A DNA stretch of 64,000 nt from Bacteroidales bacterium (GTDB lineage Bacteria; Bacteroidota; Bacteroidia; Bacteroidales; UBA932): assembly GCA_017519185.1 (NCBI GenBank), contig JAFWSX010000023.1, positions 124,001-188,000 on the forward strand, read 5' to 3'. Under the pieces are notes generated by a model, which saw only the letters and a list, made by a program, of their open reading frames with translations, was not told the origin of the DNA and ran no database searches. This document shows, one piece after another, positions 7,348-53,442 of the stretch. The stretch's first letter is position 1. Every line of letters begins with the position of its first letter. The position numbers and the translations under genes were made by a program.

Positions 7348-9660
7348 ATGAGACATTTTTCCACATTACTTCTTGCCCTGCTGCTGCTCGCCGGAATGGC
7401 TTCCTGCAAGCAGGAGCCGCAGGTAAAACCAGAGTATCCTTTCAATGACCCGAGCCTTTCCAAGGAAGAACGCGTCAACGACCTTCTGGGCAGGCTTACC
7501 GCCGAGGAGAAGGTGACGATGATGATGAACAACTCGGCCGCCATCGAGCGCCTCGGCATTCCCGCCTACAACTGGTGGAACGAAGCCCTTCACGGTGTCG
7601 CACGTGCCGGTGAAGCGACAGTCTTTCCACAGGTGATCGGTATCGCAGCCACTTTCGACGAGGATCTCAACCTTGAGACCTACACCATCGCATCGGACGA
7701 AGCCCGCGCTAAATACAATGACGCAATTGCCAACGGCACTTACAGGCAATATTACGGTCTAACTTTCTGGACTCCCAACATCAACATATTCCGCGACCCG
7801 CGCTGGGGACGCGGACACGAGACCTACGGCGAAGACCCGTACCTCACCTCAAGGATGGGCCTGGCAGCCGTCAAAGGCCTTCAGGGAAATGACAAGAACT
7901 TCTTCAAGGCACACGCCTGCGCCAAGCACTATGCAGTGCACAGCGGTCCGGAGCCCCTCCGCCACTCATTCGACGTGACGGTGTCGCCCACCGACCTGTG
8001 GGAGACATACCTTCCGGCTTTCAAGGCTCTTGTGACCGAAGGCAACGTCCAGGAAGTGATGTGCGCCTACAACCGCTACGAAGGCAACCCCTGCTGCGGC
8101 AGCACCAAGCTCCTGATAGACATCCTGCGCAACCGCTGGAAATTTGAAGGAGTGGTCGTTTCCGACTGCGGCGCTATCGACGATTTCTATCGTGAAGGCC
8201 GTCACGGAACCCATCCCGACGCACTCACTGCATCGAAGGACGCCATAATGAGCGGCACCGACCTCGAGTGCGGCAGCTCATACAGGTCTATGATTGAAGG
8301 CGTGCAGAAAGGCGTCATCACCGATGCTGACCTCGACCCGCACGTAGCGCGCCTGATCGCAGACCGCATCGAGCTTGGAATGCTCGACCCCGTTGATCTC
8401 ACCCCCTGGAAAGACTACAACATCGGCGACATCTGCACTCCCGAGCATATCGCCCACTCTCTCAAGGTTGCAAGGGAAAGCATGGTGCTTCTCAAGAACA
8501 ACGGCAATGTCCTTCCTCTGAGCAAAGACATCAGGAAAATCGCGATAGTCGGAGTCAACGCTGTCGATTCGGCAATGCTCCTGGGCAACTACAACGGAAC
8601 CCCCAGAAGCGTAGTCACCATCTACGATGGCATCAAGGCCAAATTCCCGAAGGCCGAAATCACATATGCACAAGGCAGCAAACTTGTTGACGGTTATGTG
8701 GAGCGTGTCCGCAATTCCGCCGACACCCGCCAGAGAAGGACTCCCGAGTTCTACGAGGGAATCGTGGAGGGAGCCCAGAGCGCTCCGCAGCAGCCGGCGA
8801 CTCCTCCCGGCCCCTGGAAGGCTCCTGAGAACTTCGACGATGTCGTTGCAAGGGTGAAAGATGCTGAAGTAATCATATATGTAGGAGGCCTCAGCCCGAA
8901 CCTTGAGGGCGAAGAAATGCGCGGCGTCAGCTACGATGGCTTCAAGGGCGGCGACCGCACTACCATCGAGCTTCCTGAAGTGCAGAGCAGGCTTCTTGCA
9001 GCACTGCGCTCAACCGGCAAGCCCGTCGTATTCGTGCTCACCACCGGCAGTGCCATCGGACTTGAAAGGGATGAACCCAACTATGACGCCCTTCTGGTGG
9101 CCTGGTATCCCGGCGAGCAGGGCGGCAATGCCGTTGCTGACGTTCTTGCAGGTGATTACAACCCTGCAGGCCGCCTGCCTCTGACTTTCTACAAGTCGAC
9201 CGCACAACTTCCCGACTTCGAGGATTACAATATGGCCGGCCACACCTACAGATATTTCACAGGCGAGCCTCTCTATCCCTTCGGATATGGCATCGGCTAC
9301 ACCTCTTTCTCATATGGCAAAGGCAAGCTCTCATCCTCAAGCATACGCAAGGGCAAGTCAGTCAAGGTTTCGTTCGATGTCACCAACAATGGCGGCAAGG
9401 ACGGAGACGAAGTGGCCCAGGTATATGTAAGGCGTCTCGGTGACCCTGCAGCTCCGCTCAAATCCCTGCGCGGCTTCAAGCGTACAGCCATCAAGGCCGG
9501 AGCATCACGCAAGTTCGAGTTCACCCTCGGTCCAGACGCATTCTCGTTCTACGACGCAAGCGTCGACGACTTGGCCGTGAAAGCCGGTGAATATGAAATC
9601 CTCTTCGGTGGTTCTTCAGACGACCGCAGCCTGCAGAAACTCACTCTTACCGTCAAATAA
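7348..9660 (+). CDS. GH3 family beta-glycosidase lipoprotein (beta-xylosidase-like)
   Basis: Retaining glycoside hydrolase of family 3, 770 residues, probably outer-membrane or periplasmic. A lipoprotein signal runs to Cys20 (LAGMASC). The N-terminal TIM barrel carries WWNEALHGVARAG, typical of the xylosidase-like subgroup, and the nucleophile motif VVVSDCGAID with Asp273. The alpha/beta sandwich follows (about 375-615), with an extra proline/glutamine-rich insertion near residues 450-490. A fibronectin-III-like domain ends the protein (about 655-765). Substrate is not certain: xylosidase, arabinosidase and glucosidase all fit. It heads a seven-gene operon, with rpiB-like 9 bp downstream, suggesting it releases the sugar that the operon degrades. 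No clear promoter was found upstream. Confidence 0.9.
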   Translation: MRHFSTLLLALLLLAGMASCKQEPQVKPEYPFNDPSLSKEERVNDLLGRLTAEEKVTMMMNNSAAIERLGIPAYNWWNEALHGVARAGEATVFPQVIGIAATFDEDLNLETYTIASDEARAKYNDAIANGTYRQYYGLTFWTPNINIFRDPRWGRGHETYGEDPYLTSRMGLAAVKGLQGNDKNFFKAHACAKHYAVHSGPEPLRHSFDVTVSPTDLWETYLPAFKALVTEGNVQEVMCAYNRYEGNPCCGSTKLLIDILRNRWKFEGVVVSDCGAIDDFYREGRHGTHPDALTASKDAIMSGTDLECGSSYRSMIEGVQKGVITDADLDPHVARLIADRIELGMLDPVDLTPWKDYNIGDICTPEHIAHSLKVARESMVLLKNNGNVLPLSKDIRKIAIVGVNAVDSAMLLGNYNGTPRSVVTIYDGIKAKFPKAEITYAQGSKLVDGYVERVRNSADTRQRRTPEFYEGIVEGAQSAPQQPATPPGPWKAPENFDDVVARVKDAEVIIYVGGLSPNLEGEEMRGVSYDGFKGGDRTTIELPEVQSRLLAALRSTGKPVVFVLTTGSAIGLERDEPNYDALLVAWYPGEQGGNAVADVLAGDYNPAGRLPLTFYKSTAQLPDFEDYNMAGHTYRYFTGEPLYPFGYGIGYTSFSYGKGKLSSSSIRKGKSVKVSFDVTNNGGKDGDEVAQVYVRRLGDPAAPLKSLRGFKRTAIKAGASRKFEFTLGPDAFSFYDASVDDLAVKAGEYEILFGGSSDDRSLQKLTLTVK

Positions 9661-9669
9661 ACCACAGTT

Positions 9670-10125
9670 ATGAGAGTAGTCATAGATTGCGACGACGCTG
9701 CCATCGAACTGAAAAAGGTCATAGTAGCCCATCTTGAAAAAAGCGGTGTCGAGGCCATCGACCTCGACTATCTCGGGGCGCATCCCGGTGCGTTCTACCC
9801 TGAAATCGGATACAACCTCGCGCTCAAGATCCAGGACGGCACTTTTGAAAGAGGCATCCTCATCTGCGGCACAGGCCTCGGCATGGCGATGATCGCCAAC
9901 AAGGTGAAAGGTGTCTATGCCGGTGTGTGCCACGACGTCTTCTCTGCCGAAAGACTCCGCAAGAGCAATGACGCACAGGTGCTCACGATGGGCGCCCGCG
10001 TAATAGGCCCCGAGCTTGCAAAGACCATCGTCACCGCCTGGCTGGCATCTGAGTTCCAGGGCGGCGGTTCGCTTCCCAAAGTGCAGCAGATGCACGAACT
10101 GGAAAACAAATCATTCGGATCATAA
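9670..10125 (+). CDS. RpiB/LacAB family sugar-phosphate isomerase (tetrulose-phosphate isomerase candidate)
   Basis: Aldose-ketose isomerase of the RpiB family, 151 residues, complete. The catalytic Cys66 and Thr68 are in ILICGTGLGMAM. The family C-terminal segment SNDAQVLTMGARVIG is kept. The N-terminal signature, usually DHAG in ribose-5-phosphate isomerase B, is DDAA here (residues 8-11), so a substrate-contacting histidine is replaced by aspartate. That fits RpiB paralogues acting on other sugar phosphates such as erythrulose 4-phosphate (DerI/EryI-type). The kinase genes that follow (13 bp) are also of the type that phosphorylates tetruloses. Ribose-5-phosphate isomerase remains possible. 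Confidence 0.88.
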   Translation: MRVVIDCDDAAIELKKVIVAHLEKSGVEAIDLDYLGAHPGAFYPEIGYNLALKIQDGTFERGILICGTGLGMAMIANKVKGVYAGVCHDVFSAERLRKSNDAQVLTMGARVIGPELAKTIVTAWLASEFQGGGSLPKVQQMHELENKSFGS

Positions 10126-10138
10126 CAACCCCAACTAT

Positions 10139-11146
10139 ATGCAAAAGATTATCAATGACCCTTCGTGCGTCGTTGACGAGATGCTGGAAGGCTTCGTCAA
10201 GGCGAACAGTGAACTCGTCTCTGCTACGGAGAACGAGCGCGTCCTTAAATACAAAAAAGCTCCCATAGAGGGCAAGGTCGGCATAGTCACCGGCGGCGGC
10301 TCCGGCCACAAGCCGGCGTTCATCGGCTATATAGGCAAGAATATGGTGGATGCCGTGGCCGTAGGAGAACTTTTCTCTTCTCCGCCTGCCCAGATGTTCT
10401 ACGACGCCATCCACGAGGCTGATGCCGGCAAGGGTGTGGCTATACTCTACGGTAACTATGCCGGCGACAATATGAATGTCGCAATGGCAATGGAACTTGC
10501 CGAAGATGACGGCATCAAGGTGGGCAAGGTAGTCGCAAACGACGACGTCCCTTCTGCCCCCAGGGAGACCCGCGAGAAAAGGCGCGGCGTAGCCGGCGAA
10601 ATCCTTATGTGGAAGGTCGGCGGAGCCATGGCTGCTATGGGCGGAAGCCTGGAGGAGGTCATTGCAGCCGCACAGAAGGCCATTGACAACACCCGCAGTA
10701 TGGGTGTCGGTCTGAGCCCCTGCACCATTCCCGAAGTCGGCCATCCTAACTTCACCATCGAGCCCGGCAATATGGAAGTCGGCATAGGGCATCACGGAGA
10801 GCCCGGCATCGAGGTCGCAAAACTCGAAACTGCCGGCCAGATTGCCAAGCGTATGTGCGACGTCATCCTGCCCGACCTGCCTTTCGCCGCCGGCGACGAA
10901 GTGGTAGTCCTCGTGTCAGGCCTCGGCTCAACTCCCCTTCTCGAGCAGTACATCTTCTACGGCGAAGTCGAGAAGATTCTCTGCGAAAAGGGCATCAAGG
11001 TGCACCAGGCCTTCGTGGGCAACTATTTCACTTCCCTCGAGATGGCCGGCATCACCCTCACTCTTATGAAACTCGACGATGAGCTGAAGGAGTGCATCGA
11101 TCTGGAATGCAACTCAATCGGACTCACCCAATATCCGAAAGACTGA
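10139..11146 (+). CDS. dhaK: DhaK-type dihydroxyacetone/tetrulose kinase subunit
   Basis: Substrate-binding subunit of a two-part kinase; binds a short ketose covalently through a histidine. The start at 10139 (MQKIINDPSCVVDEMLEGF) matches the family. The longer frame beginning at 10016 lies inside the preceding gene. Signatures: GGGSGHKPAFIGYIG (about 52-66), YGNYAGDNMN (about 105-114) and GHHGEPGIEV with His219 at the hemiaminal position. At 335 residues it equals E. coli DhaK in size. dhaL follows 6 bp later. No dhaM (PTS phosphoryl donor) gene is present in the window. The isomerase context suggests erythrulose rather than dihydroxyacetone as substrate. Confidence 0.9.
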   Translation: MQKIINDPSCVVDEMLEGFVKANSELVSATENERVLKYKKAPIEGKVGIVTGGGSGHKPAFIGYIGKNMVDAVAVGELFSSPPAQMFYDAIHEADAGKGVAILYGNYAGDNMNVAMAMELAEDDGIKVGKVVANDDVPSAPRETREKRRGVAGEILMWKVGGAMAAMGGSLEEVIAAAQKAIDNTRSMGVGLSPCTIPEVGHPNFTIEPGNMEVGIGHHGEPGIEVAKLETAGQIAKRMCDVILPDLPFAAGDEVVVLVSGLGSTPLLEQYIFYGEVEKILCEKGIKVHQAFVGNYFTSLEMAGITLTLMKLDDELKECIDLECNSIGLTQYPKD

Positions 11147-11152
11147 CGCAGT

Positions 11153-11794
11153 ATGGACAAATTCACGCAGCAGGCCGGAAGCCTGATAGTCGACAGGCTC
11201 ATAGTGGCCATTCAGGAAAACAAGCAATATCTGAGCGACATTGACGGAGCCATCGGCGACGGCGACCACGGCATCAATATGAACAAGGGCTTCACGCTCT
11301 GCCGCGAGGCTTTGGACAAACAGCCGGGAGACTTCACCTATGGGCTCAAGACTCTCGGCAAGATACTTATGATGAAGATAGGCGGCTCTATGGGACCTCT
11401 GTACGGCAAGTTCTTCCTTTCTATGGGCAAGGCTCTGGAAGGTGTGGACGAGATAGGCCGCGACGAGTTCGGCGCAGCCCTGAAGGCTTCTCTCGACTCC
11501 ATCCACGCAATCTCTCCCGCACAGGTCGGAGACAAGACTCTGATGGATGTGCTCATTCCAGCCGAAGAGGCATACAGCAATGCCGCAGCCGAGGGGCTTC
11601 CTTTCGGCAAGGCACTCGAGGCTATGGACGCCGCTGCCCTCAAGGGCCGTGACAGCACGGTCGACATGGTAGCCAAGCTTGGTCGTTCAAGCCGGCTCGG
11701 AGAACGCTCGAGAGGCGTGATGGATGCGGGAAGCGCATCCTGCTACCTGATTCTCCACACTATGGCTGATACCATCAAGGAACTTCTCGCATAG
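11153..11794 (+). CDS. dhaL: DhaL-type nucleotide-binding kinase subunit
   Basis: Nucleotide-binding partner of the preceding DhaK-type subunit, 213 residues. The metal-binding motif IGDGDHGINM is near residues 35-44, with Asp31, Asp36 and Asp38 as likely Mg2+ ligands. GDKTLMDVL (about 125-133) and RGVMDAGSASC (about 184-194) are the other family marks. In PTS-linked systems DhaL keeps ADP bound and is rephosphorylated by DhaM; in ATP-dependent kinases the same domain exchanges nucleotide. Without a dhaM neighbour I cannot say which applies. Spacing is 6 bp from dhaK and 5 bp to the permease. Confidence 0.9.
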   Translation: MDKFTQQAGSLIVDRLIVAIQENKQYLSDIDGAIGDGDHGINMNKGFTLCREALDKQPGDFTYGLKTLGKILMMKIGGSMGPLYGKFFLSMGKALEGVDEIGRDEFGAALKASLDSIHAISPAQVGDKTLMDVLIPAEEAYSNAAAEGLPFGKALEAMDAAALKGRDSTVDMVAKLGRSSRLGERSRGVMDAGSASCYLILHTMADTIKELLA

Positions 11795-11799
11795 TCGAA

Positions 11800-13134
11800 A
11801 TGCTCATCATCCTGCTCATAGCGGCCATCGCCTTCATCGTCATCTCGACGACGAAATTCAAGCTGCACCCGTTCCTGGCCCTTATCATTGCTGCCATAGG
11901 GTACGGCCTGTGCGCCGGCATCCCGCTTGACAAGATCATTTCATCTGTCAACAACGGATTCGGCAGCACGGTAAGCTCCATCGGAATAGTGATCGTGGTC
12001 GGCTGCATCATCGGGACTTTCCTGGAGGAATCCGGAGGTGCTTACGTAATGGCAAGGAGCGTCCTGAAACTGGTCGGAGAAAAACGCGTCCCTCTGGCGA
12101 TGCTGATTCTCGGCTATTTCATCTCCATACCCGTCTACGCAGACTCCGGCTTCGTCATCCTGACTCCTCTCAACCGCGCACTTTCGAAGAAAGCCAAGAT
12201 AACCCTTGCCAGTTCGGCCTGCGCCCTCGGCCTGGGTCTTACCATCACCCACTGCCTCGTGCCGCCGACTCCTGGCCCTATAGCCGCCGCCGGCATAATG
12301 GAGGCAGATCTCGGCCTGGTCATCCTCACCGGCATAGCAGCCAGCATACTTCCGCTGCTGGTGGCCTGGCTGTTCGTGACCAAGTGGGCTTCCAGGACAT
12401 ACATCGACCCGTCGCCGAACGAGACCGATGCCGACATCGAAAAGAAAGTGGCCGAGGCTCCCTCCGCAGCCAGGTCTTTCCTGCCGATCATAGTTCCGCT
12501 GGTTCTCATAGTACTCAAATCCTTATCTTCATTCCCTTCCGCTCCTTTCGGCACGGGGACTTTCGCGAAAATCATCGGTTTCATCGGTGAGCCTGTCACC
12601 GCCCTTCTTATAGGAATGGTTCTGGCTTTCACCCTCCCGAAGAAATTCGACCGCGAGATGATTTCTTCAACCGGATGGGTGGGCAAGGCTCTCACTTCGG
12701 CTGCGATTATCATTATGATCACTGCGGCCGGCGGCTCTTTCGGTATGATTCTCAGGGATTCCGGCATCGCAGATGTCCTTGGGGACTCTCTTTCCAGCCT
12801 TAACCTGGGCATCTGGCTTCCCTTCCTGATTGCTGCAGCGCTCAAAACCGCACAGGGCTCATCTACGGTCGCCATCATCACTACAGCTTCGATCATCGCC
12901 CCGCTGATGGGCGTGATGGGCTTCGTGGCCCCGCTTGAGAAAGCGATTCTCGTCACTGCGCTCTGCTCAGGTGCAATGGTTGTCGCCCACGTCAACGACA
13001 GCTTCTTCTGGGTAGTCACACAGATGTCCGGAATGAGCATCAAGACCGGCTACAAGCTGCACACGCTGGGCACCCTTCTATGCGGTTTGACCGCAATGCT
13101 GCCCATGTGCCTTTTATATGCTATATTTTGCTAA
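11800..13134 (+). CDS. GntP-family permease (sugar acid or polyol symporter)
   Basis: Inner-membrane permease of 444 residues with about 12-14 hydrophobic segments. It opens with a helix directly at the start (MLIILLIAAIAFIVISTTKF). The family's conserved GFGSTVSSIGIVIVVGCIIG (about 52-71) and TPGPIAAAGIM (about 157-167) segments are present, together with a late SSTVAIITTASI stretch (about 352-363). GntP proteins usually import aldonic acids such as gluconate, threonate or erythronate, so the imported compound may be a C4 or C5 acid rather than a neutral sugar. It lies 5 bp after dhaL and 6 bp before the propeller-like gene. Confidence 0.9.
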   Translation: MLIILLIAAIAFIVISTTKFKLHPFLALIIAAIGYGLCAGIPLDKIISSVNNGFGSTVSSIGIVIVVGCIIGTFLEESGGAYVMARSVLKLVGEKRVPLAMLILGYFISIPVYADSGFVILTPLNRALSKKAKITLASSACALGLGLTITHCLVPPTPGPIAAAGIMEADLGLVILTGIAASILPLLVAWLFVTKWASRTYIDPSPNETDADIEKKVAEAPSAARSFLPIIVPLVLIVLKSLSSFPSAPFGTGTFAKIIGFIGEPVTALLIGMVLAFTLPKKFDREMISSTGWVGKALTSAAIIIMITAAGGSFGMILRDSGIADVLGDSLSSLNLGIWLPFLIAAALKTAQGSSTVAIITTASIIAPLMGVMGFVAPLEKAILVTALCSGAMVVAHVNDSFFWVVTQMSGMSIKTGYKLHTLGTLLCGLTAMLPMCLLYAIFC

Positions 13135-13140
13135 TCAACA

Positions 13141-14136
13141 ATGAATAAAAAATCCATTCTCGAAATCCAATCAGTCTATACCGCCAATGCTTTCCAGGTT
13201 GACGGTGTGACTTTCATAGGCGCAGGGTCTGAGACGACTCCCGCCGTTTATCTGCACAATCTGCCTGCCGGCACCTCAAGTTTTGTTGACGGATGCCCGG
13301 GAGGCGTGATGAGTTTCGTTCCGGCGCCGGGACATCCCGACCTGTTCTATTCCATAATGGGCCTCTTCCCTCCTTTCAAAGGGCTCGAAGCCGGTGTCTT
13401 CATGCATCGCCGCACTGGCGACAAATGGGAGACTTCTAGGATAATGCATCTCCCCTTCGCGCACCGATGCGACATTCTGGAAAAGGACGGCAAGAGCTGG
13501 ATTTTCGCTGCTTCGTGCAGCAAGTTCAAGGCTGATCCCCTGGACTGGGCCAATGCCGGTGAACTTTACGCGATTCCTCTGGACGAGGCAGGTCTTCCCG
13601 GCACGCCCGAACTGATATATGACAAAATCTGGAGGCATCACGGCATGCTGAAGGCCAATATCGCAGGCGATGACACCCTCCTATTCTCGGGAGCAGAAGG
13701 TGTCTTCTATATGGCACGCAAAGATGGCAAATGGGAAGTCTGCCAGCTGTTCGACCACGAGGTCAGCGAATTCGGCCTTATCGACCTGGATGGTGACGGC
13801 GTGGACGAACTTGTGACCATCGAGCCCTTCCACGGCAACACTCTCAATGTATACAAGAAGAATGGTTCCGGATGGAACAAGCTTTTTACCGACGAGCTTC
13901 GGTTCGGACACGGCCTGAGCTGCGGAATGTTCAAAGGCGAGGCGATAATCGTGGTCGGCAACCGTCGCGGTCCGCTGACGCTCAATCTCTACAAGCGTCT
14001 GGCCGACGGCAGCTTCTCACACGAGATTCTGGAGGACGAAGTGGGTCCCACCCAGACTCAGGTTTTCACTGCTGACGGCGTCGATTATATTCTCAGCGCA
14101 AACCAGCTTAAAAACGAAGTAGCACTTTATTATTAA
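13141..14136 (+). CDS. Predicted beta-propeller protein of unknown function in the tetrulose operon
   Basis: I do not recognise a named family. The 331-residue protein has no signal peptide and no membrane helix, so it is probably cytosolic. Short beta-strand repeats with aromatic-glycine turns run along it. One FG-GAP/VCBS-like calcium loop, IDLDGDGVDELV, is at about residues 217-228. Conserved-looking histidines occur at FAHRCDI (about 104) and RHHGML (about 167), and a charged FRFGHGLSCG-type segment near 255. Histidine spacing across blades could form a metal or substrate site at the centre, as in propeller lactonases and epimerases. Placement inside the operon, 6 bp from both neighbours, suggests a catalytic step such as lactone hydrolysis or epimerisation. 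This is inference only. Confidence 0.7.
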   Translation: MNKKSILEIQSVYTANAFQVDGVTFIGAGSETTPAVYLHNLPAGTSSFVDGCPGGVMSFVPAPGHPDLFYSIMGLFPPFKGLEAGVFMHRRTGDKWETSRIMHLPFAHRCDILEKDGKSWIFAASCSKFKADPLDWANAGELYAIPLDEAGLPGTPELIYDKIWRHHGMLKANIAGDDTLLFSGAEGVFYMARKDGKWEVCQLFDHEVSEFGLIDLDGDGVDELVTIEPFHGNTLNVYKKNGSGWNKLFTDELRFGHGLSCGMFKGEAIIVVGNRRGPLTLNLYKRLADGSFSHEILEDEVGPTQTQVFTADGVDYILSANQLKNEVALYY

Positions 14137-14142
14137 TTTCAT

Positions 14143-15048
14143 ATGGACAACAAATCAAAACAGATAGGTCTCATCGGACTTGGCGTTATGGGCAAGCCGA
14201 TGGCCAAGAACCTCCTCAAGGGAGGTTTTTCCCTCACAGTGTATGACATCAAACCGGAACCTGTAGCTGAGGTTGCGGCTCTTGGCGCAAAGACTGCCTC
14301 TTCGCCTGCCGAGGTGGCTTCAAAATGCGACATCATCATCACGATGCTGCCCAATTCACCTCACGTCGAGGCTGTGGTGTGCGGTGCGAACGGCATTCTG
14401 GAAGGAATCCGTCCGGGCTCGATCTACATCGATATGAGTTCAATCTCTCCCGTACTCGACAAGAAACTCTATGACATTATGGCTGAAAAGGGTGTCGAGA
14501 TGCTCGATGCTCCGGTCAGCGGCGGCGAGCCGAAGGCTAAGGACGGCACGATGTCGATTATGGTCGGTGGCAAGCAGGAGGTCTTTGATTCTGTCTACGA
14601 CGTTTTCAAGGCTATGGGTGACGCTGTTACTCTCGTCGGCGACATCGGCAGCGGCAATACCTGCAAGCTTGCGAACCAGATTATGGTGGCGCTCCATCTT
14701 GCGGCTGTGTCTGAGGCGATGGTGTTTGCCGAGAAGGCTGGAGTGGACCCGGAGAAGGTTTACAAGGCCATCCGTGGCGGTCTGGCCGGCAGCACGGTGC
14801 TTGATGCCAAGATGCCGATGATCCTGGACCGCAACTTCAAGCCGGGCGGTCCCATCTGGATGCACACCAAGGATCTGCTCAACGTGCGTGACGCTGCTCT
14901 CGCCATCGATGCTCCGATTCCGCTCACGACTCAGGTGCTCGAGGCTTTCAAGGCCTGCAAGTGCGACGGCCACGTCAATGACGACCACTGCGGTGTTATC
15001 CAGTACTGGGAGAAGCTCGCCAACGTAAAAGTAGAACGCAGAAAGTAA
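14143..15048 (+). CDS. Beta-hydroxyacid dehydrogenase, GarR/LtnD/HIBADH family
   Basis: NAD(P)-dependent oxidoreductase of the 3-hydroxyisobutyrate dehydrogenase/tartronate-semialdehyde reductase family, 301 residues. The Rossmann motif GLIGLGVMGKPMA is at residues 9-21, the substrate loop DAPVSGGEPKAKDG at 122-135, and the catalytic lysine region GSGNTCKLANQ holds Lys175 and Asn179. Candidate reactions include reduction of tartronate semialdehyde to glycerate, or oxidation of a C4 aldonate such as threonate. The GntP permease next to it supports an acid substrate. It ends the operon. Its stop codon abuts the stop codon of the convergent gene with no base between, and no terminator was seen. 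Confidence 0.9.
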   Translation: MDNKSKQIGLIGLGVMGKPMAKNLLKGGFSLTVYDIKPEPVAEVAALGAKTASSPAEVASKCDIIITMLPNSPHVEAVVCGANGILEGIRPGSIYIDMSSISPVLDKKLYDIMAEKGVEMLDAPVSGGEPKAKDGTMSIMVGGKQEVFDSVYDVFKAMGDAVTLVGDIGSGNTCKLANQIMVALHLAAVSEAMVFAEKAGVDPEKVYKAIRGGLAGSTVLDAKMPMILDRNFKPGGPIWMHTKDLLNVRDAALAIDAPIPLTTQVLEAFKACKCDGHVNDDHCGVIQYWEKLANVKVERRK

Positions 15049-16812: not shown

Positions 16813-18072
16813 ATGAACGCAACGCTATACACTCTCACATCCAGCCTTCACACCGAAATGGCCGATGACGTCCGCAGGGAACCTTTCATCAAAAACATTG
16901 AGGCTGCTCTCGGAGCTGACTTCGAAATTGCCGGGGCAGATTTCTCAAAATACGGCACAAGGCCCTGTGAACTGATATATGTCCGCACGGGTGGCACTGA
17001 GGGGGCGTTCAAGGCAGTCTTCTGCAAGGATGGCGGCAAGCCCTGCATTCCGGAACCGGTGAGGCTGCTCACCAGCGGCAAAAGCAATTCGCTGGCGGCG
17101 AGCATGGAGATTATGTCCTACCTCAACCTGCACGGCATCAAGGGAGAGATCCTGCACGGCAGTCCGGCATACATTGCCGCAAGAATCAGGAGTTCCAAGG
17201 ACGACACCGTACCTGCAGATTCGGGGCTCGTCCTAAATGTGCACCCCGACAAGATCCTTCAAGGACAGCGGCTGGGTGTAGCAGGCCGTCCGTCGGACTG
17301 GTTGATTTCAAGTGACGTGGATTATGCCGCAGCACACGATGTGCTCGGAGTGGAGCTGGTTGACATCGGTATGGAAGAACTGCTGGATGAAATTGCAGCG
17401 CACAGCCACCCTGCCGTGGAAGTTCCGCCTCTGAACGCCCCGAAGTTCGGCAACCCGATTCCGGCCGGTGACCTTGATGTTGCACTTGACATTTACGGCG
17501 CGCTGCTGCGCATCATAGCCCGTCACCGCCTCGACGGACTGACCATCCGCTGCTTCGACCTACTCGGCACTGTACACAACACCGGCTGTATGGCGCTTGC
17601 GCTGCTGAATTCCCAAGGTTACAATGCGACCTGCGAAGGCGACGTTCCCGCGATGCTCTCGATGGCAGTGGCACGCAAGTTCTGCAACCAGAGCGGCTTC
17701 CAGGCGAACCTGTCTTCCATAGATGGCGACAGGCTGCTCTTCGCGCATTGCACCGTTCCTCTGTCGATGGTCCGGCGCTGGGTCTATGACACGCACTTTG
17801 AATCGGGCTTCGGAGTGGCCGTTCACGGTGAACTGCCCTGCGGCCCGGCCACCATCTTCAAGCTGGCACCCGACTTCAATACAGCCTTCATAGCAGAAGC
17901 AGAGTTGATGCAGAACTGCTACGAAGGAATGCTCTGCCGCACCCAGGTCATCCTGAAAGCAGAAGGTCTCGCCCCCTACTTTCTTCGCACTCCCATCGGC
18001 AACCATCACGTCATACTCACCGGCAGCTATGCCTCGCAGCTGAGAGACGCATTGGGATTCGCTCAAAAATGA
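16813..18072 (+). CDS. L-fucose/L-arabinose isomerase-like protein
   Basis: A 419-residue protein resembling the FucI/AraA superfamily of metal-dependent aldose-ketose isomerases. The N-terminal half has IYVRTGGTEGAF (about 55-66) and the segment LGVAGRPSDWLISSDVDYA (about 155-173). The C-terminal half has the diagnostic TGCMALALLNSQGYNATCEGD (20-residue window about 257-276), with the glutamate that binds metal in related enzymes. It is shorter than true L-fucose isomerase (about 590) and L-arabinose isomerase (about 500), so it belongs to the short fucose-isomerase-like group whose substrates are poorly known. The esterase downstream may be cotranscribed (32 bp gap). Confidence 0.75.
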   Translation: MNATLYTLTSSLHTEMADDVRREPFIKNIEAALGADFEIAGADFSKYGTRPCELIYVRTGGTEGAFKAVFCKDGGKPCIPEPVRLLTSGKSNSLAASMEIMSYLNLHGIKGEILHGSPAYIAARIRSSKDDTVPADSGLVLNVHPDKILQGQRLGVAGRPSDWLISSDVDYAAAHDVLGVELVDIGMEELLDEIAAHSHPAVEVPPLNAPKFGNPIPAGDLDVALDIYGALLRIIARHRLDGLTIRCFDLLGTVHNTGCMALALLNSQGYNATCEGDVPAMLSMAVARKFCNQSGFQANLSSIDGDRLLFAHCTVPLSMVRRWVYDTHFESGFGVAVHGELPCGPATIFKLAPDFNTAFIAEAELMQNCYEGMLCRTQVILKAEGLAPYFLRTPIGNHHVILTGSYASQLRDALGFAQK

Positions 18073-48632: not shown

Positions 48633-50246
48633 ATGAAAGATTTTTCAAGACGTCAATTCCTCAAGACTGCAGGCGTAGCTACAGCCGGTGCAGTTCTTAC
48701 CGGTTCTGCAGCAAGTGCAGCCAGCAAAGCCGGCGCTTTCAACCCTGTCCAGACTGAGCTGGAAGCTGCAAAGGCTGACGGACAGAAAGTCCGTCTGGCT
48801 TGTATCGGTGCTGCCAACCAGGCTGCATCTGACATCGGTCAGTTCGACCGTTCAGGTATCTGCGAGATCACCTGCATCTGTGATGTGGACATCAAGAGCG
48901 CAGGATGCCAGCGTACCATCGCCAACCATCCCAAGGCAAAAGTTTTCACTGATTTCAGGGAAATGTTCGACAAGGCTCACAACGACTTCGACGCCGTTCT
49001 CGTAGCCATCCCGGACTTCGCACACTTCCCTGCTGCAATGCTCGCCATTTCTTATGGCAAGAGTGTTTATATCGAGAAGCCCATGTGCCGTACATTCAAC
49101 GAAGCCGAGCTCCTCTGCGACATAGCCAACCGTCATCCGGAAGCTGCCACCCAGGTCGGTAACCAGGGTCACTCAGGCGAGAACTACTTCCAGTTCAAGG
49201 CCTGGTATGAAGCCGGTATCATCAACGACTGCCGCAAGATCACTGCTCACTTCAACAACTGGCGCCGCTGGTATCCTTACGATCCGGCTATCACCAAATT
49301 CCCGGAGGCTGAGCCTATTCCCGACGGAATGGACTGGGACACCTGGCTGACTACTGCCAAGTTCCACGAGTTCAACGGCAAATATCACCCTGGCAACTGG
49401 CGTGGCTGGTATGACTTCGGTATGGGAGCAATTGGTGACTGGGCTGCCCACATCATCGACACTCCCCACCAGTTCCTCCGTCTTGGTGTTCCTTACGAAG
49501 TTGATCCTATCCACGTAGTGAACCACAACGACTTCTTCTTCCCGTTCGAGACCACTTTACGTTTCAAATTCGCCGCACGCGGCAAATTGCCTGAGTGCGA
49601 AGTTACCTGGTATGACGGCGAGAAGAACATTCCTGAGCTTCCTAACGGATACTGGGATACTGAAACCAATGCAGACAGCAACATCCCCGCAATCACCGTC
49701 AACGGCCAGACTGTCGACCCGAGAAGCCTCGGCGGCGCAGCCGGTCAGAGACCTCAGGGCGGCCAGGGTGGTCAGAGACCTCAAGGCGGCCAGAGACCTG
49801 CCGGTGGCGGCCAGAGGCCTGCTGCCGCAGCAGCTCCCGCAGCCAACGGTCCGCGCGTTCCTTCACCCGGCAGTGAGCTTTACTGCAAGGGTCCGGACGG
49901 AAAAGACCTCGTTATCAAACGTGGTTCTCACGCCGCTGCATCTCAGATCATCGGCGAAGCAAGGGCCAAGGAACTCGAGAAATATATGCCTCAGGTTCCT
50001 GAGTCACCTTCTAATCACTACGAGAACTTCCTTCTCGGAGCAATGGGAAGAGAAAAGACCCGTTCTTCAATTCAGGTATTCACCCCGCTGGCTCAGATGT
50101 TCTCACTTGGCACAATCGCCATGCGTCTGAACAGGAAGATCATCTTCGACAATGTAACCAAGTCCTGCGTAGGTGACCGCTTCGCAACAGCTCTGCTTTG
50201 CGACCAGCCGCCGAGAAAGGGTTGGGAAGAATTCTACAAACTCTAA
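48633..50246 (+). CDS. Tat-exported Gfo/Idh/MocA oxidoreductase with a GQRP-repeat insertion
   Basis: 537-residue NAD(P)-dependent sugar oxidoreductase of the Gfo/Idh/MocA family. The N-terminus SRRQFLKTAGVATAGAVLTG (5-24) is a Tat signal. The cofactor loop reads CIGAANQAA instead of the usual GxGxxG, and the catalytic-region EKP motif is at VYIEKPMCRT (about 147-156). Residues about 370-410 form a low-complexity insertion built from GQRPQGG units. Cofactor must be carried folded through the Tat system. In characterised Bacteroides systems such enzymes oxidise sugars at C3 before DUF1080 proteins cleave the glycoside, and a DUF1080 gene follows 2 bp later. Confidence 0.88.
   Translation: MKDFSRRQFLKTAGVATAGAVLTGSAASAASKAGAFNPVQTELEAAKADGQKVRLACIGAANQAASDIGQFDRSGICEITCICDVDIKSAGCQRTIANHPKAKVFTDFREMFDKAHNDFDAVLVAIPDFAHFPAAMLAISYGKSVYIEKPMCRTFNEAELLCDIANRHPEAATQVGNQGHSGENYFQFKAWYEAGIINDCRKITAHFNNWRRWYPYDPAITKFPEAEPIPDGMDWDTWLTTAKFHEFNGKYHPGNWRGWYDFGMGAIGDWAAHIIDTPHQFLRLGVPYEVDPIHVVNHNDFFFPFETTLRFKFAARGKLPECEVTWYDGEKNIPELPNGYWDTETNADSNIPAITVNGQTVDPRSLGGAAGQRPQGGQGGQRPQGGQRPAGGGQRPAAAAAPAANGPRVPSPGSELYCKGPDGKDLVIKRGSHAAASQIIGEARAKELEKYMPQVPESPSNHYENFLLGAMGREKTRSSIQVFTPLAQMFSLGTIAMRLNRKIIFDNVTKSCVGDRFATALLCDQPPRKGWEEFYKL
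49738..49845 (+). repeat. In-frame tandem repeat encoding GQRP-type units
   Basis: At least four imperfect copies of an 18-24 base unit around GGCCAGAGACCT/GGTCAGAGACCT, inside the first Gfo/Idh/MocA gene. The repeat keeps the reading frame and encodes Gly/Gln/Arg/Pro followed by an Ala run. Confidence 0.75.
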
Positions 50247-50248
50247 TC

Positions 50249-51028
50249 ATGAAGAATTCTCTCCTCGTTTTTGCAGTTGTTCTGCTGGCCTTCGCACAAA
50301 GTTGCGACAGGCCGGCTGACAACAGCAAATATTTCAATCTTGACCAGGTTGTCACTGAAGACAACGTGCTAACCAAGGCTGAGAAAGCCCAGGGATGGCA
50401 GTTGCTCTTCGACGGCAAGTCTTTCGATGGCTGGCACATTGCCGGCACCGACCACCAGCCCGACAGCGTATGGCACGTGTCTGACGGACAGATTGTCCTT
50501 GACAAAAGAAAACCCTTCGCCCGCGGAGCAGGTGACATTGTTACAGACCAGGTGTTCAAGAATTTCATCGTCAAGGTCGATTTCAAAATTACCGAAGGCG
50601 CCAACAGCGGCCTGAAGTATTTTGTAGACCCCGCTATGGAAAGCATCCCTGGAGGCGCCTCAATCGGCTGCGAGTTCCAGATGCTTGATGACGAGCGCCA
50701 TCCCGACGCCAAAGCCGGCGTCAAGGGCAACCGCACCCTGTCATCACTCTACGACCTGATTCCCGCCCAGAAGGAGAACGCCAATTTCAACCTTTATGAC
50801 TTCAACACCGCTATGGTCTATGTCAACGGCAATCACGTGGAGCATTGGCTCAACGGTGTCAAAGTTGTTGAATACGAGCGCAACACCCAGGAATGGAATG
50901 CTCTTGTTGCCTACAGCAAATACCGCAACTATCCCAACTTCGGCAATGCCGAGTTCGGACATCTGCTGCTTCAGGACCACTCCGACCATGTTTATTTCAA
51001 GAACATAAAGATTAAAGTATTAGACTAA
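50249..51028 (+). CDS. DUF1080 lipoprotein (3-keto-glycoside hydrolase-like)
   Basis: 259 residues, concanavalin-like (DUF1080, 3-keto-disaccharide hydrolase) domain behind a lipoprotein signal ending at Cys19 (AFAQSC). Start at 50249 chosen because it gives the signal peptide and follows the upstream stop by 2 bp. Family hallmarks: GWQLLFDGKSFDGWHIAG (about 50-67), DFKITEGANSGLKYFV (about 111-126), HVEHWLNGVKVVEYE (about 194-208). In known systems these lyase-like enzymes release aglycone from 3-keto sugars made by Gfo/Idh/MocA partners. The stop codon is immediately followed by the next ATG. Confidence 0.88.
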   Translation: MKNSLLVFAVVLLAFAQSCDRPADNSKYFNLDQVVTEDNVLTKAEKAQGWQLLFDGKSFDGWHIAGTDHQPDSVWHVSDGQIVLDKRKPFARGAGDIVTDQVFKNFIVKVDFKITEGANSGLKYFVDPAMESIPGGASIGCEFQMLDDERHPDAKAGVKGNRTLSSLYDLIPAQKENANFNLYDFNTAMVYVNGNHVEHWLNGVKVVEYERNTQEWNALVAYSKYRNYPNFGNAEFGHLLLQDHSDHVYFKNIKIKVLD

Positions 51029-51271
51029 ATGAAAGATCTGGTCATTTCAGGCAAGAGGGTGAAAACCGAGTTGTTGATAGCGCTGGGCTGCTTCGTCTGT
51101 GCCGTGCTCATCAACATCATCTGCATCATCGTCTACCATTCTCAATGGCATGAAATCTTTTCCCAGATTGGATTTACAGTCCTGGTAGCGGTCATCCTGT
51201 ATGTATTGCTGCTGCTCATAAGGCTGCTGGCACTTCTCTGCAAAAAGATTTTCGCAAAGAGGAATAAATGA
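51029..51271 (+). CDS. Small two-helix membrane protein
   Basis: 80 residues, no family recognised. Two membrane helices (about 14-36, LLIALGCFVCAVLINIICII; about 45-70, IGFTVLVAVILYVLLLLIRL) with a basic C-terminus (CKKIFAKRNK), so both ends are probably cytosolic. No flavinylation motif seen. It begins at the base after the DUF1080 stop and overlaps apbE by 4 bp (ATGA), so it is certainly translated with its neighbours. Role unknown. Confidence 0.75.
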   Translation: MKDLVISGKRVKTELLIALGCFVCAVLINIICIIVYHSQWHEIFSQIGFTVLVAVILYVLLLLIRLLALLCKKIFAKRNK

Positions 51272-52143
51272 CATCCTTCAAGTATAGCGACGAAAACATC
51301 TCCGCACCGGTAGCCTATTCAGCATTCGAAACGATGCACTCCGTTGCGGAGATTGTTTTGCCGTTCTACAGCGAAGAGAAATCACGGGCTATCATAGATG
51401 AGATCTGGGCCCGCACAAAAGAAGCGAACGACAAGTTCAACCGCTTCGACAAGGGCAGCCCCCTGGCCCTTGTAAACAAAACGGCCGCTGACGGGCCGGT
51501 TGCCGTCGATGACGAACTGTTCATGGTGCTCGAGATGTGCAGGGTTTTCTGCAACAGCACCGACGGGTATTTCGACATCACGGCGAACAAGGTTTCCCGC
51601 ACTGCGTCAAAGGGGGCGAAGAACTTTGAACTTGACGGCAGCTCCCACACCGTCCGCTTTTTTGACCCTACGGTCAAGCTGGACCTCGGAGGTTTCGCCA
51701 AGGGATACGCGCTGGAGAATGCGTGTAACATTTTGAAACGTGAAAATGTTACCTGCGCTCTGTTGAATTTCGGCAACAGTTCCATCTCCGCCTTGGGCAC
51801 ACATCCATATGGTGACCATTGGCCGATTTCGGTGGAGCACCCGTACTTCAGGGGAAAATGCGCGCACACGTTTGAATTGAAAGATTGTGCTCTGTCCATC
51901 TCGGGCAAGAACGGACGCGGCCTCGGACACATCATCGATCCGGCGACAGGAGACCGTGTGGTAAGGGATGAAATGGTGGCTGTAACCGGCCCCTCCCCTA
52001 TGGTCTGCGAAGTCCTTTCCACCGCGCTTTACGTGGCTCCGAGAGAAAAGAGAAGCGATATATTGGCCCGATTTAAGGGCTACTCGGCAAGCGAAATTTA
52101 CTGCTTGACCAATGGTACGACGAAAGTCATTAAAGTATATTGA
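51268..52143 (+). CDS. apbE: FAD:protein FMN transferase (ApbE-like), no signal peptide
   Basis: Transfers FMN from FAD to Thr/Ser of target proteins. 291 residues. FAD-binding and catalytic segments: KFNRFDKGSPLALVN (about 53-67), GYFDITANKVSR (about 97-108), LDLGGFAKGYALENA (about 131-145), and HIIDPATGD (about 215-223). No signal peptide or lipobox is visible, so it may act in the cytoplasm, unlike most exported ApbE proteins. No substrate with a clear flavinylation motif is encoded nearby. The operon context (exported oxidoreductases) hints at a redox role for the modified protein. Confidence 0.88.
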   Translation: MTSFKYSDENISAPVAYSAFETMHSVAEIVLPFYSEEKSRAIIDEIWARTKEANDKFNRFDKGSPLALVNKTAADGPVAVDDELFMVLEMCRVFCNSTDGYFDITANKVSRTASKGAKNFELDGSSHTVRFFDPTVKLDLGGFAKGYALENACNILKRENVTCALLNFGNSSISALGTHPYGDHWPISVEHPYFRGKCAHTFELKDCALSISGKNGRGLGHIIDPATGDRVVRDEMVAVTGPSPMVCEVLSTALYVAPREKRSDILARFKGYSASEIYCLTNGTTKVIKVY

Positions 52144-52149
52144 TATAAT

Positions 52150-53442
52150 ATGGATAAATTATTAACCCGTAAAGAGTTCCTGTCAAACCTGGGCAGCATG
52201 TTCGCAGTGGGATCTGCCATCTCGCTGTTCCCGTGGCTGACCTCCTGCACCGAAAAGGGACAGAAGGAAATCGAAGGTCAGGCAGCAAAACTGGGCATCA
52301 TCGGCACCGGTTCCAGAGGTCAGTTCCATATCGCGAACCTGCTAGTCGACAAGAGTGCCAAGATCGTAGCCTTGTGCGACGATTATGAGCCCCACCTTCA
52401 GGCTGCAGCTGCTATGTGCCCCGACGCGAAACTCTATAGCGACTACCACAAGCTGCTTGACGACAAGAATGTGGACGGAGTCATCATCGCCACTCCGCTG
52501 AACCTGCACGCGCCTATGACAATAGATGCATTCAGGGCAGGCAAACACGTCTTCTGCGAAAAATCAATGGCATATTCAATCCAGGACTGCAAGGATGTCA
52601 TCGCCGAATGGAAACGCAGCGGAAAGGTGTTCGTCGTAGGACAGCAGAGGCTCTTCGACCCCAAGTACATCAAGGCTATGGAACTGATCCATTCAGGTGC
52701 CATCGGAGAAGTCGTAGGAGTACGCAACTACTGGTACCGCAACAATGACTGGCGCAGAGAAGTTCCGTCACCCGAACTGGAAAGACGCATCAACTGGAGG
52801 CTCTACAACGAGAGTTCAAGAGGCTTGATGACCGAGCTCGCCTGCCACCAACTGCAGAACGGTTCCTGGGCTATGGACCAGTATCCCGAGTGCGTATCTG
52901 GAATGGGAAGCATCCGCTTCTGGAAGGACGGCCGCGAAGTGTTCGACAATGTCGCCGTCACTTATGAATATCCCAACGGCGTGCATATGACCTTCGAATC
53001 GATCATATCCAACAAGCATTTCGGAATGGGTGAATTCATCCTCGGTTCCGAAGGTACGATCGACCTGGTGAAGGGCATTATGTTCAGCGAACAGCCTGCA
53101 TACCGCAGCGGCATCGAGCAGTTCCTGATGCAGATCAAGCAAGGCATCCTGAGCAACAACGCTTTTGCTGGAAGCAGCTGGTCACAGGAAGACGCTTCCA
53201 CCGACCCCGGCATCCGTTTCACCGACAAGATCATCACTACCGACGGTTCAAGCAGTACAGGAGCTACAAATGACGGATCCGTGGAGCTCGCACACGCTTT
53301 CTGCCACGCAGTCATCACAGGTCAGCAACCCGACAAGATCGTGAAGGAAGCCTACTACGCCACTGCGCTTGCCCTTATGGGAGACCAGGCTTCACACGAA
53401 AAATCTACGATTTATTTCAAGGAAGAAGACAGGATACTGTAA
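52150..53442 (+). CDS. Exported Gfo/Idh/MocA oxidoreductase lipoprotein
   Basis: 430 residues, the second oxidoreductase of the operon. The N-terminus TRKEFLSNLGSMFAVGSAI is Tat-like (RK in place of RR) and ends in a lipobox LTSC (Cys33). Cofactor loop GIIGTGSRGQF (about 47-57) is canonical. The EKP motif is changed to EKS at HVFCEKSMAY. Conserved RGLMTELACHQL (about 226-237) holds the probable catalytic His. It follows apbE by 6 bp. Its stop codon abuts the convergent DUF2400 gene directly. Confidence 0.88.
   Translation: MDKLLTRKEFLSNLGSMFAVGSAISLFPWLTSCTEKGQKEIEGQAAKLGIIGTGSRGQFHIANLLVDKSAKIVALCDDYEPHLQAAAAMCPDAKLYSDYHKLLDDKNVDGVIIATPLNLHAPMTIDAFRAGKHVFCEKSMAYSIQDCKDVIAEWKRSGKVFVVGQQRLFDPKYIKAMELIHSGAIGEVVGVRNYWYRNNDWRREVPSPELERRINWRLYNESSRGLMTELACHQLQNGSWAMDQYPECVSGMGSIRFWKDGREVFDNVAVTYEYPNGVHMTFESIISNKHFGMGEFILGSEGTIDLVKGIMFSEQPAYRSGIEQFLMQIKQGILSNNAFAGSSWSQEDASTDPGIRFTDKIITTDGSSSTGATNDGSVELAHAFCHAVITGQQPDKIVKEAYYATALALMGDQASHEKSTIYFKEEDRIL

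Follow-up and report, generated by a model that had tools for sequence, protein, structure and literature searches.

A rumen Bacteroidales bacterium has a six-gene operon that apparently degrades a sugar acid associated with plant xylan, and one gene of the operon, here called PROP, encodes an uncharacterised protein, unnamed in family databases, that is probably the missing enzyme of the operon. Among solved enzymes, profile and fold comparisons both place PROP nearest to the propeller domain of a fungal aldos-2-ulose dehydratase (AUDH), a Zn-dependent lyase of keto-sugars; that PROP is an enzyme of this class, acting between the GarR-type dehydrogenase and the DhaKL kinase, we regard as an even call. 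Decarboxylation of a 3-oxo-pentonate is the best single guess at its reaction, and a tentative one.

What is gained is a concrete, testable set of predicted active-site residues and a predicted chemistry for a protein without a name, and a link between the AUDH propeller and bacterial sugar-acid catabolism. There may be a new branch here in the use of the acidic parts of xylan by gut and rumen bacteria; with six genes and a single unknown, the operon is small enough for reconstitution in vitro.

The operon and its genomic settings

The PROP gene is real. Within the window (the whole 64,000-nucleotide stretch analysed) it begins with ATG, encodes 331 aa and stands in the following order:

7348..9660, + strand: GH3 protein resembling Xyl3A but short of the equivalog cut-off; ends 9 bp ahead of the RpiB gene
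9670..10125, + strand: RpiB/LacAB-family isomerase, with Asp9 and a Ser at the canonical His positions; predicted D-erythrulose-4-phosphate isomerase
10139..11146, + strand: DhaK-type kinase subunit; predicted erythrulose/dihydroxyacetone kinase
11153..11794, + strand: DhaL-type kinase subunit
11800..13134, + strand: GntP-family sugar-acid permease
13141..14136, + strand: PROP, 331 aa, seven-bladed, AUDH-propeller-like; predicted metal-dependent keto-sugar-acid lyase
14143..15048, + strand: GarR-type 2-hydroxy-3-oxopropionate reductase/beta-hydroxyacid dehydrogenase

The original prediction described a cytosolic protein without a signal peptide, placed tightly between permease and dehydrogenase and alone in the operon in having no assignable role; all of this holds. 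The GntP gene stops at 13134 and the GarR gene starts at 14143, leaving 6 bp on each side of PROP. The N-terminus is not hydrophobic: within its first 40 aa no 12-residue stretch exceeds a mean hydropathy of 1.1, as against 2.4–2.8 in L020 and L021, two secreted relatives discussed below. Every other member is assigned to a family by Pfam and NCBIfam (GH3, RpiB/LacAB, DhaK, DhaL, GntP, GarR), whereas PROP draws sub-threshold matches only, to FG-GAP repeats and to the AUDH beta-propeller domain.

The order RpiB-DhaK-DhaL-GntP-PROP-GarR is identical in six genomes (that of the window, those of loci L002-L005, and G843); since the whole unit is kept in five genomes besides this one, it is not there by chance. 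In L003-L005, a hybrid regulator and a divergent SusCD precede the operon, in a locus with GH10 xylanase, GH43, GH120 and GH3 genes; a glucuronoyl esterase of CE15 type is encoded in L004, and an esterase of SASA type in L003. In three of the six genomes the operon adjoins a glucuronoxylan utilisation locus. The four close relatives of PROP found on genome contigs (76–93% identity) all come from Bacteroidales/Bacteroidia MAGs, one of them titled from yak omasum.

Beyond these, distribution is sparse. Full-length orthologues occur in 6 of 393 genomes of the order: its own and five of a second family, f14 (52–56% identity). A sixth f14 orthologue was found within that family, and in PROP's own family (100 genomes) only its own genome and G843 carry the gene. 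No relatives were found in plasmid and viral collections. In G014, G228 and G877, all of f14, PROP and GarR are convergent neighbours, with DhaK elsewhere in the genome; the GarR flank carries an MtaA/CmuA-like gene and, in G014, the PROP flank a GH106 gene. Methyltransferase-like genes of the MtaA/CmuA family (URO-D) adjoin GarR and PROP in f14 at L016:1-948, L042:5839-6879 and L015:3734-4072, and may hint at O-methylated sugar acids. In G131, G307 and G370, PROP follows a class-C beta-lactamase-like serine hydrolase, and no close GarR is found in these assemblies; beta-lactamase-family hydrolases stand directly upstream of f14 PROP at L014:7186-8553, L017:684-2045 and L018:3938-5416. The original prediction had held that wide occurrence outside sugar operons would tell against an enzyme of the operon: full-length orthologues are rare, as it would have it, and yet three of the six in f14 adjoin this hydrolase, outside any sugar operon. 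GarR paralogues in f14 also occur together with a glycerate kinase, an LctP-like permease and a LarA-like racemase (L080, L081, L082; GarR and glycerate kinase apart, the families were judged by eye); these were set aside as a different system.

The kinase and isomerase have a life of their own. G176, G197, G014, G307 and, in part, G228 and G877 hold a close DhaK (73–78%) and its partners without PROP, in company with xylose-isomerase-like TIM barrels, an MFS transporter or both. This looks like two routes feeding one kinase-isomerase pair, with PROP and GarR in place of the TIM barrels. The two uncharacterised TIM barrels of this sort near RpiB-DhaK-DhaL (L035:7552-8412 and 12671-13690; L036; L037) are candidates for the epimerase and the isomerase/decarboxylase of a related sugar-acid route.

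Two other loci of the window deserve mention. At 48633-53439, Gfo/Idh/MocA-like oxidoreductases (48633-50243 and 52150-53439) flank a DUF1080-like protein (50198-51025; families by eye), which looks like a 3-keto-glycoside cleavage cluster. A 419-aa ORF at 16813-18072 belongs to no Pfam family and gives a weak NCBIfam match, far below cut-off, to sulfoquinovose isomerase.

Fold, conserved residues and relation to AUDH

An AlphaFold model (pLDDT 84, pTM 0.84), built from five close sequences with the f14 and G843 relatives left out, contains 28 strands and reads as seven blades of four, the N-terminal strand closing the propeller; the predicted propeller, already suspected in the original prediction, fills the whole 331-aa chain. 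Searched against the PDB with Foldseek, the model finds the EPTP domains of LGI1 first; AUDH (4a7k) is the best enzyme, with a TM score of 0.76. Sequence searches of the PDB with the protein of the window (P0001) or its profile gave no match.

The relation to AUDH can be followed through intermediates. Aligned with AUDH alone by hhalign, the PROP family reaches 38% probability over 64 columns; with L020 and L021, distant PROP homologues from the same phylum, added to AUDH, the figures are 97.2%, E 4.4e-11 and 233 columns, which take in four His motifs. It is thus L020 and L021 that carry the relation, over most of the domain. Unrelated FG-GAP proteins score 73–74%, but over 35–45 columns only, around the Asp loop, and a shuffled-sequence control for AUDH gives 0.1–0.4%. 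Both intermediates exceed the Pfam cut-off for AUDH_beta_propeller (PF22301) and match 4a7k at E 1.5e-5 and 2.7e-5; P0001 scores 17.1 bits and the best member of its family 25.9 bits (E 9.8e-6), each below the 27-bit cut-off. A PF22301 search of 148 genomes of the phylum found one match, in G511. That PROP is AUDH proper was rejected: PROP has neither cupin nor lectin domains and falls short of the Pfam cut-off.

The conserved sites are as follows:

13462..13464, + strand: codon of His108, in the AHRC motif where strand A of blade III starts; paired with AUDH His155 (hhalign via L020/L021); invariant in 10/10
13639..13641, + strand: codon of His167, in the HGM motif immediately ahead of strand A of blade IV; paired with AUDH His215
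13783..13809, + strand: DxDxDG loop of FG-GAP type, D215-E223, on the bottom face; a probable structural Ca2+ site
13822..13833, + strand: Glu228-Pro-Phe-His231, in the IEPFHG motif on the B-C loop of blade V; paired with EAFHGN and His295 of AUDH
13909..13911, + strand: codon of His257, in the GHGL motif where strand A of blade VI starts; paired with AUDH His337

The original prediction had noticed histidines that looked conserved and a single FG-GAP-type Asp loop, and both are there. Five histidines (H89, H108, H167, H231 and H257) are invariant in ten homologues of 52–100% identity. When the invariant residues are mapped onto the blades of the predicted model, the top face (the D-A and B-C loops, 112 positions) holds 19 of the 31 invariant H/R/K/D/E/N/Q residues and the other 219 positions hold 12 (odds ratio 3.5, Fisher p 0.0012). 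Residues 215-223 form the one and only DxDxDG loop, which scores 18–19 bits against curated cut-offs of 22–27 (PF13517/PF01839), all ten members likewise falling short. In the model the loop lies opposite the conserved active-site face, and so is probably not the active site; it is probably structural. The rest of the earlier argument survives in qualified form: PROP is the member of the operon best placed to supply the missing step and is probably an enzyme, and the prediction was right to look for a metal site, which probably lies at the top face.

To our knowledge, the AUDH propeller is represented by one characterised enzyme, of fungal origin. The 2012 paper on its structure (J Mol Biol 417:279) reportedly describes a propeller Zn2+ that binds the intermediate ascopyrone M directly and gives Lewis-acid assistance at the C2 ketone; His155 is reportedly the proposed proton shuttle or catalytic residue. 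As H108 is the equivalent of His155, we infer that PROP carries out metal-assisted keto-sugar chemistry. Which of the four PROP histidines bind the metal is presumed from the AUDH literature.

A proposed pathway and the readings that compete with it

In the proposed pathway, GntP would import a C5 aldonate freed with xylan, D-xylonate being the best guess; GarR would oxidise the C3 hydroxyl, with the 2,3-dihydroxyacid/2-hydroxy-3-oxoacid chemistry of tartronate semialdehyde reductase applied to a longer substrate; PROP would convert the 2-hydroxy-3-oxopentonate to D-erythrulose and CO2; DhaKL would phosphorylate the D-erythrulose; and the RpiB-like isomerase would yield erythrose-4-phosphate. 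Within PROP, a divalent metal (Zn2+ by analogy) near the propeller axis, held by histidines from the set H167, H231 and H257, would polarise the ketone of the acidic keto-sugar and stabilise the enediolate, with H108 as general base/acid by comparison with AUDH. On chemical reasoning, oxidation of D-xylonate at C3 and decarboxylation would give D-erythrulose with the right stereochemistry.

The isomerase argues for a C4 intermediate. In the RpiB copies of all these loci, Asp replaces the first of the two canonical active-site histidines, near the N-terminus (DDA instead of DHG), and Ser replaces the other; they share this Ser and the block SAER..SNxAQ..TMGARVIG with 5ifz, not with the ribose-type 3he8. 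Although RpiB scores 150.7 bits, its active site does not follow the ribose-type pattern; the second-best NCBIfam model is DerI, D-erythrulose-4-phosphate isomerase, far below the DerI cut-off. Such a site, to judge by its residues, suits a tetrulose phosphate. Dihydroxyacetone would leave RpiB idle, and a C4 ketose is therefore the better product for PROP and GarR. A role for RpiB as the uronate isomerase of the operon is weakened, UxaC being present in all six operon-bearing genomes tested (as fragments in G879).

Other observations tell against the proposed pathway. GarR is closest to a true tartronate semialdehyde reductase (1vpd, E 5.6e-114) and exceeds the equivalog cut-off, which argues for a C3 product. 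The three f14 orthologues beside a hydrolase, without a close GarR, also count against the pathway. Beta-keto acids, moreover, can decarboxylate unaided.

One competing perspective supposes that PROP is a dehydratase, as AUDH is: a beta leaving group, either OH or the OMe of a keto-acid derived from 4-O-methyl-glucuronate, would be expelled once the metal has polarised the ketone and H108 has removed the alpha proton. Dehydration is the only reaction known to us for an AUDH propeller, and the His155 equivalent is kept; an O-methylated acid would fit the glucuronoxylan setting, the CE15-type esterase and the methyltransferase-like gene beside PROP and GarR in f14. The deoxy-diketo acid so formed, however, is no obvious substrate for DhaKL, RpiB or GarR, and the operon has no further enzyme for it; we consider this reading unlikely, if worth keeping in view.

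A second perspective makes PROP a class-II-like retro-aldolase that splits a 5-keto-hexonate, such as D-fructuronate, into dihydroxyacetone for DhaKL and tartronate semialdehyde for GarR. The GarR match to 1vpd, whose reaction is the same conversion on a shorter chain, fits both this and the decarboxylase; DhaK resembles dihydroxyacetone kinases; and the operon-bearing genomes encode the uronate isomerase UxaC and a glycerate kinase. The last was dropped as a discriminator, as it occurs with and without the operon. RpiB is left without a role, yet RpiB and DhaK travel together even in loci without PROP and GarR; nor is the RpiB active site ribose-type. We think the aldolase rather improbable.

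The original prediction had offered lactonase, epimerase or aldolase-like activities; the aldolase, like the dehydratase, keeps the modest standing just given it, and the others fare worse. As a lactonase, epimerase or mutarotase, PROP would ready the acid for GarR. Metal-dependent propeller lactonases do exist, and 6-phosphogluconolactonase 3scy (TM 0.63) and lactonase 8djf (TM 0.56) are among the fold matches; both rank below AUDH, Pfam and NCBIfam searches to E 0.1 gave no lactonase family match (SGL and 6-phosphogluconolactonase types included) and none to an epimerase family, and the conserved motifs are those of AUDH. This is improbable, and less likely than a lyase. A non-catalytic binding or scaffold protein, suggested by the LGI1 domains at the head of the fold matches, is very improbable given the strict His/Glu/Arg/Gln conservation on one face and the tight co-operonic position among cytosolic enzymes.

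Decarboxylation of the 3-oxo-pentonate is the reading we prefer. The largest claim that could be built on it would be that no beta-propeller before PROP has been known as the decarboxylase (or keto-acid lyase) in a sugar-acid pathway, and that PROP completes a route new to description in rumen Bacteroidales, from xylan-derived pentonate through 3-oxo-pentonate and D-erythrulose to erythrose-4-phosphate, with the AUDH metal propeller recruited to central carbohydrate catabolism; taken as a whole, that claim is doubtful.

Comparison with known systems

The threonate/erythronate and apionate routes use a dehydrogenase, a separate beta-keto-acid decarboxylase and a kinase. The operon would share with them the dehydrogenase, the decarboxylating step and the kinase; the decarboxylases of those routes are not known to be propellers, and no such known decarboxylase is encoded in the operon.

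At its lower end the proposed pathway resembles the erythrulose kinase-isomerase route of tetritol catabolism (LerK, LerI, DerI), in which erythrulose kinase and the isomerases LerI and DerI lead to erythrose-4-phosphate (PMC10733421, which also describes a selection in an E. coli delta-tktAB strain auxotrophic for erythrose-4-phosphate). The two differ in what feeds in: here it is an acid permease, a GarR-type dehydrogenase and the propeller, and the operon has no LerI/EryC-like gene.

The secreted bacterial AUDH-propeller proteins L020 and L021 (about 400 aa) have the same four His motifs as PROP, including TIEPMHGN and QGHAL, and match its profile at E about 1e-9, with 26–29% identity across half the length. 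Unlike PROP, they are secreted and have three FG-GAP stretches, and the L021 and L044 copies adjoin Gfo/Idh/MocA oxidoreductases. At L044:3087-6687, the secreted homologue lies beside two such genes (those two by eye), a possible bacterial keto-sugar dehydrogenase-dehydratase set.

AUDH itself (the aldos-2-ulose dehydratase/isomerase of Phanerochaete chrysosporium; 4a7k/4a7y/4a7z, PF22301), a Zn2+-dependent enzyme active on glucosone and 1,5-anhydrofructose, has the seven-bladed propeller of PROP, and its motifs GMHR, VHE, EAFHGN and HQV answer to AHRC, HHGM, EPFHGN and GHGL. PROP differs in lacking the two cupin domains and the C-terminal lectin domain: it is a single cytosolic domain of 331 aa, set in a sugar-acid operon.
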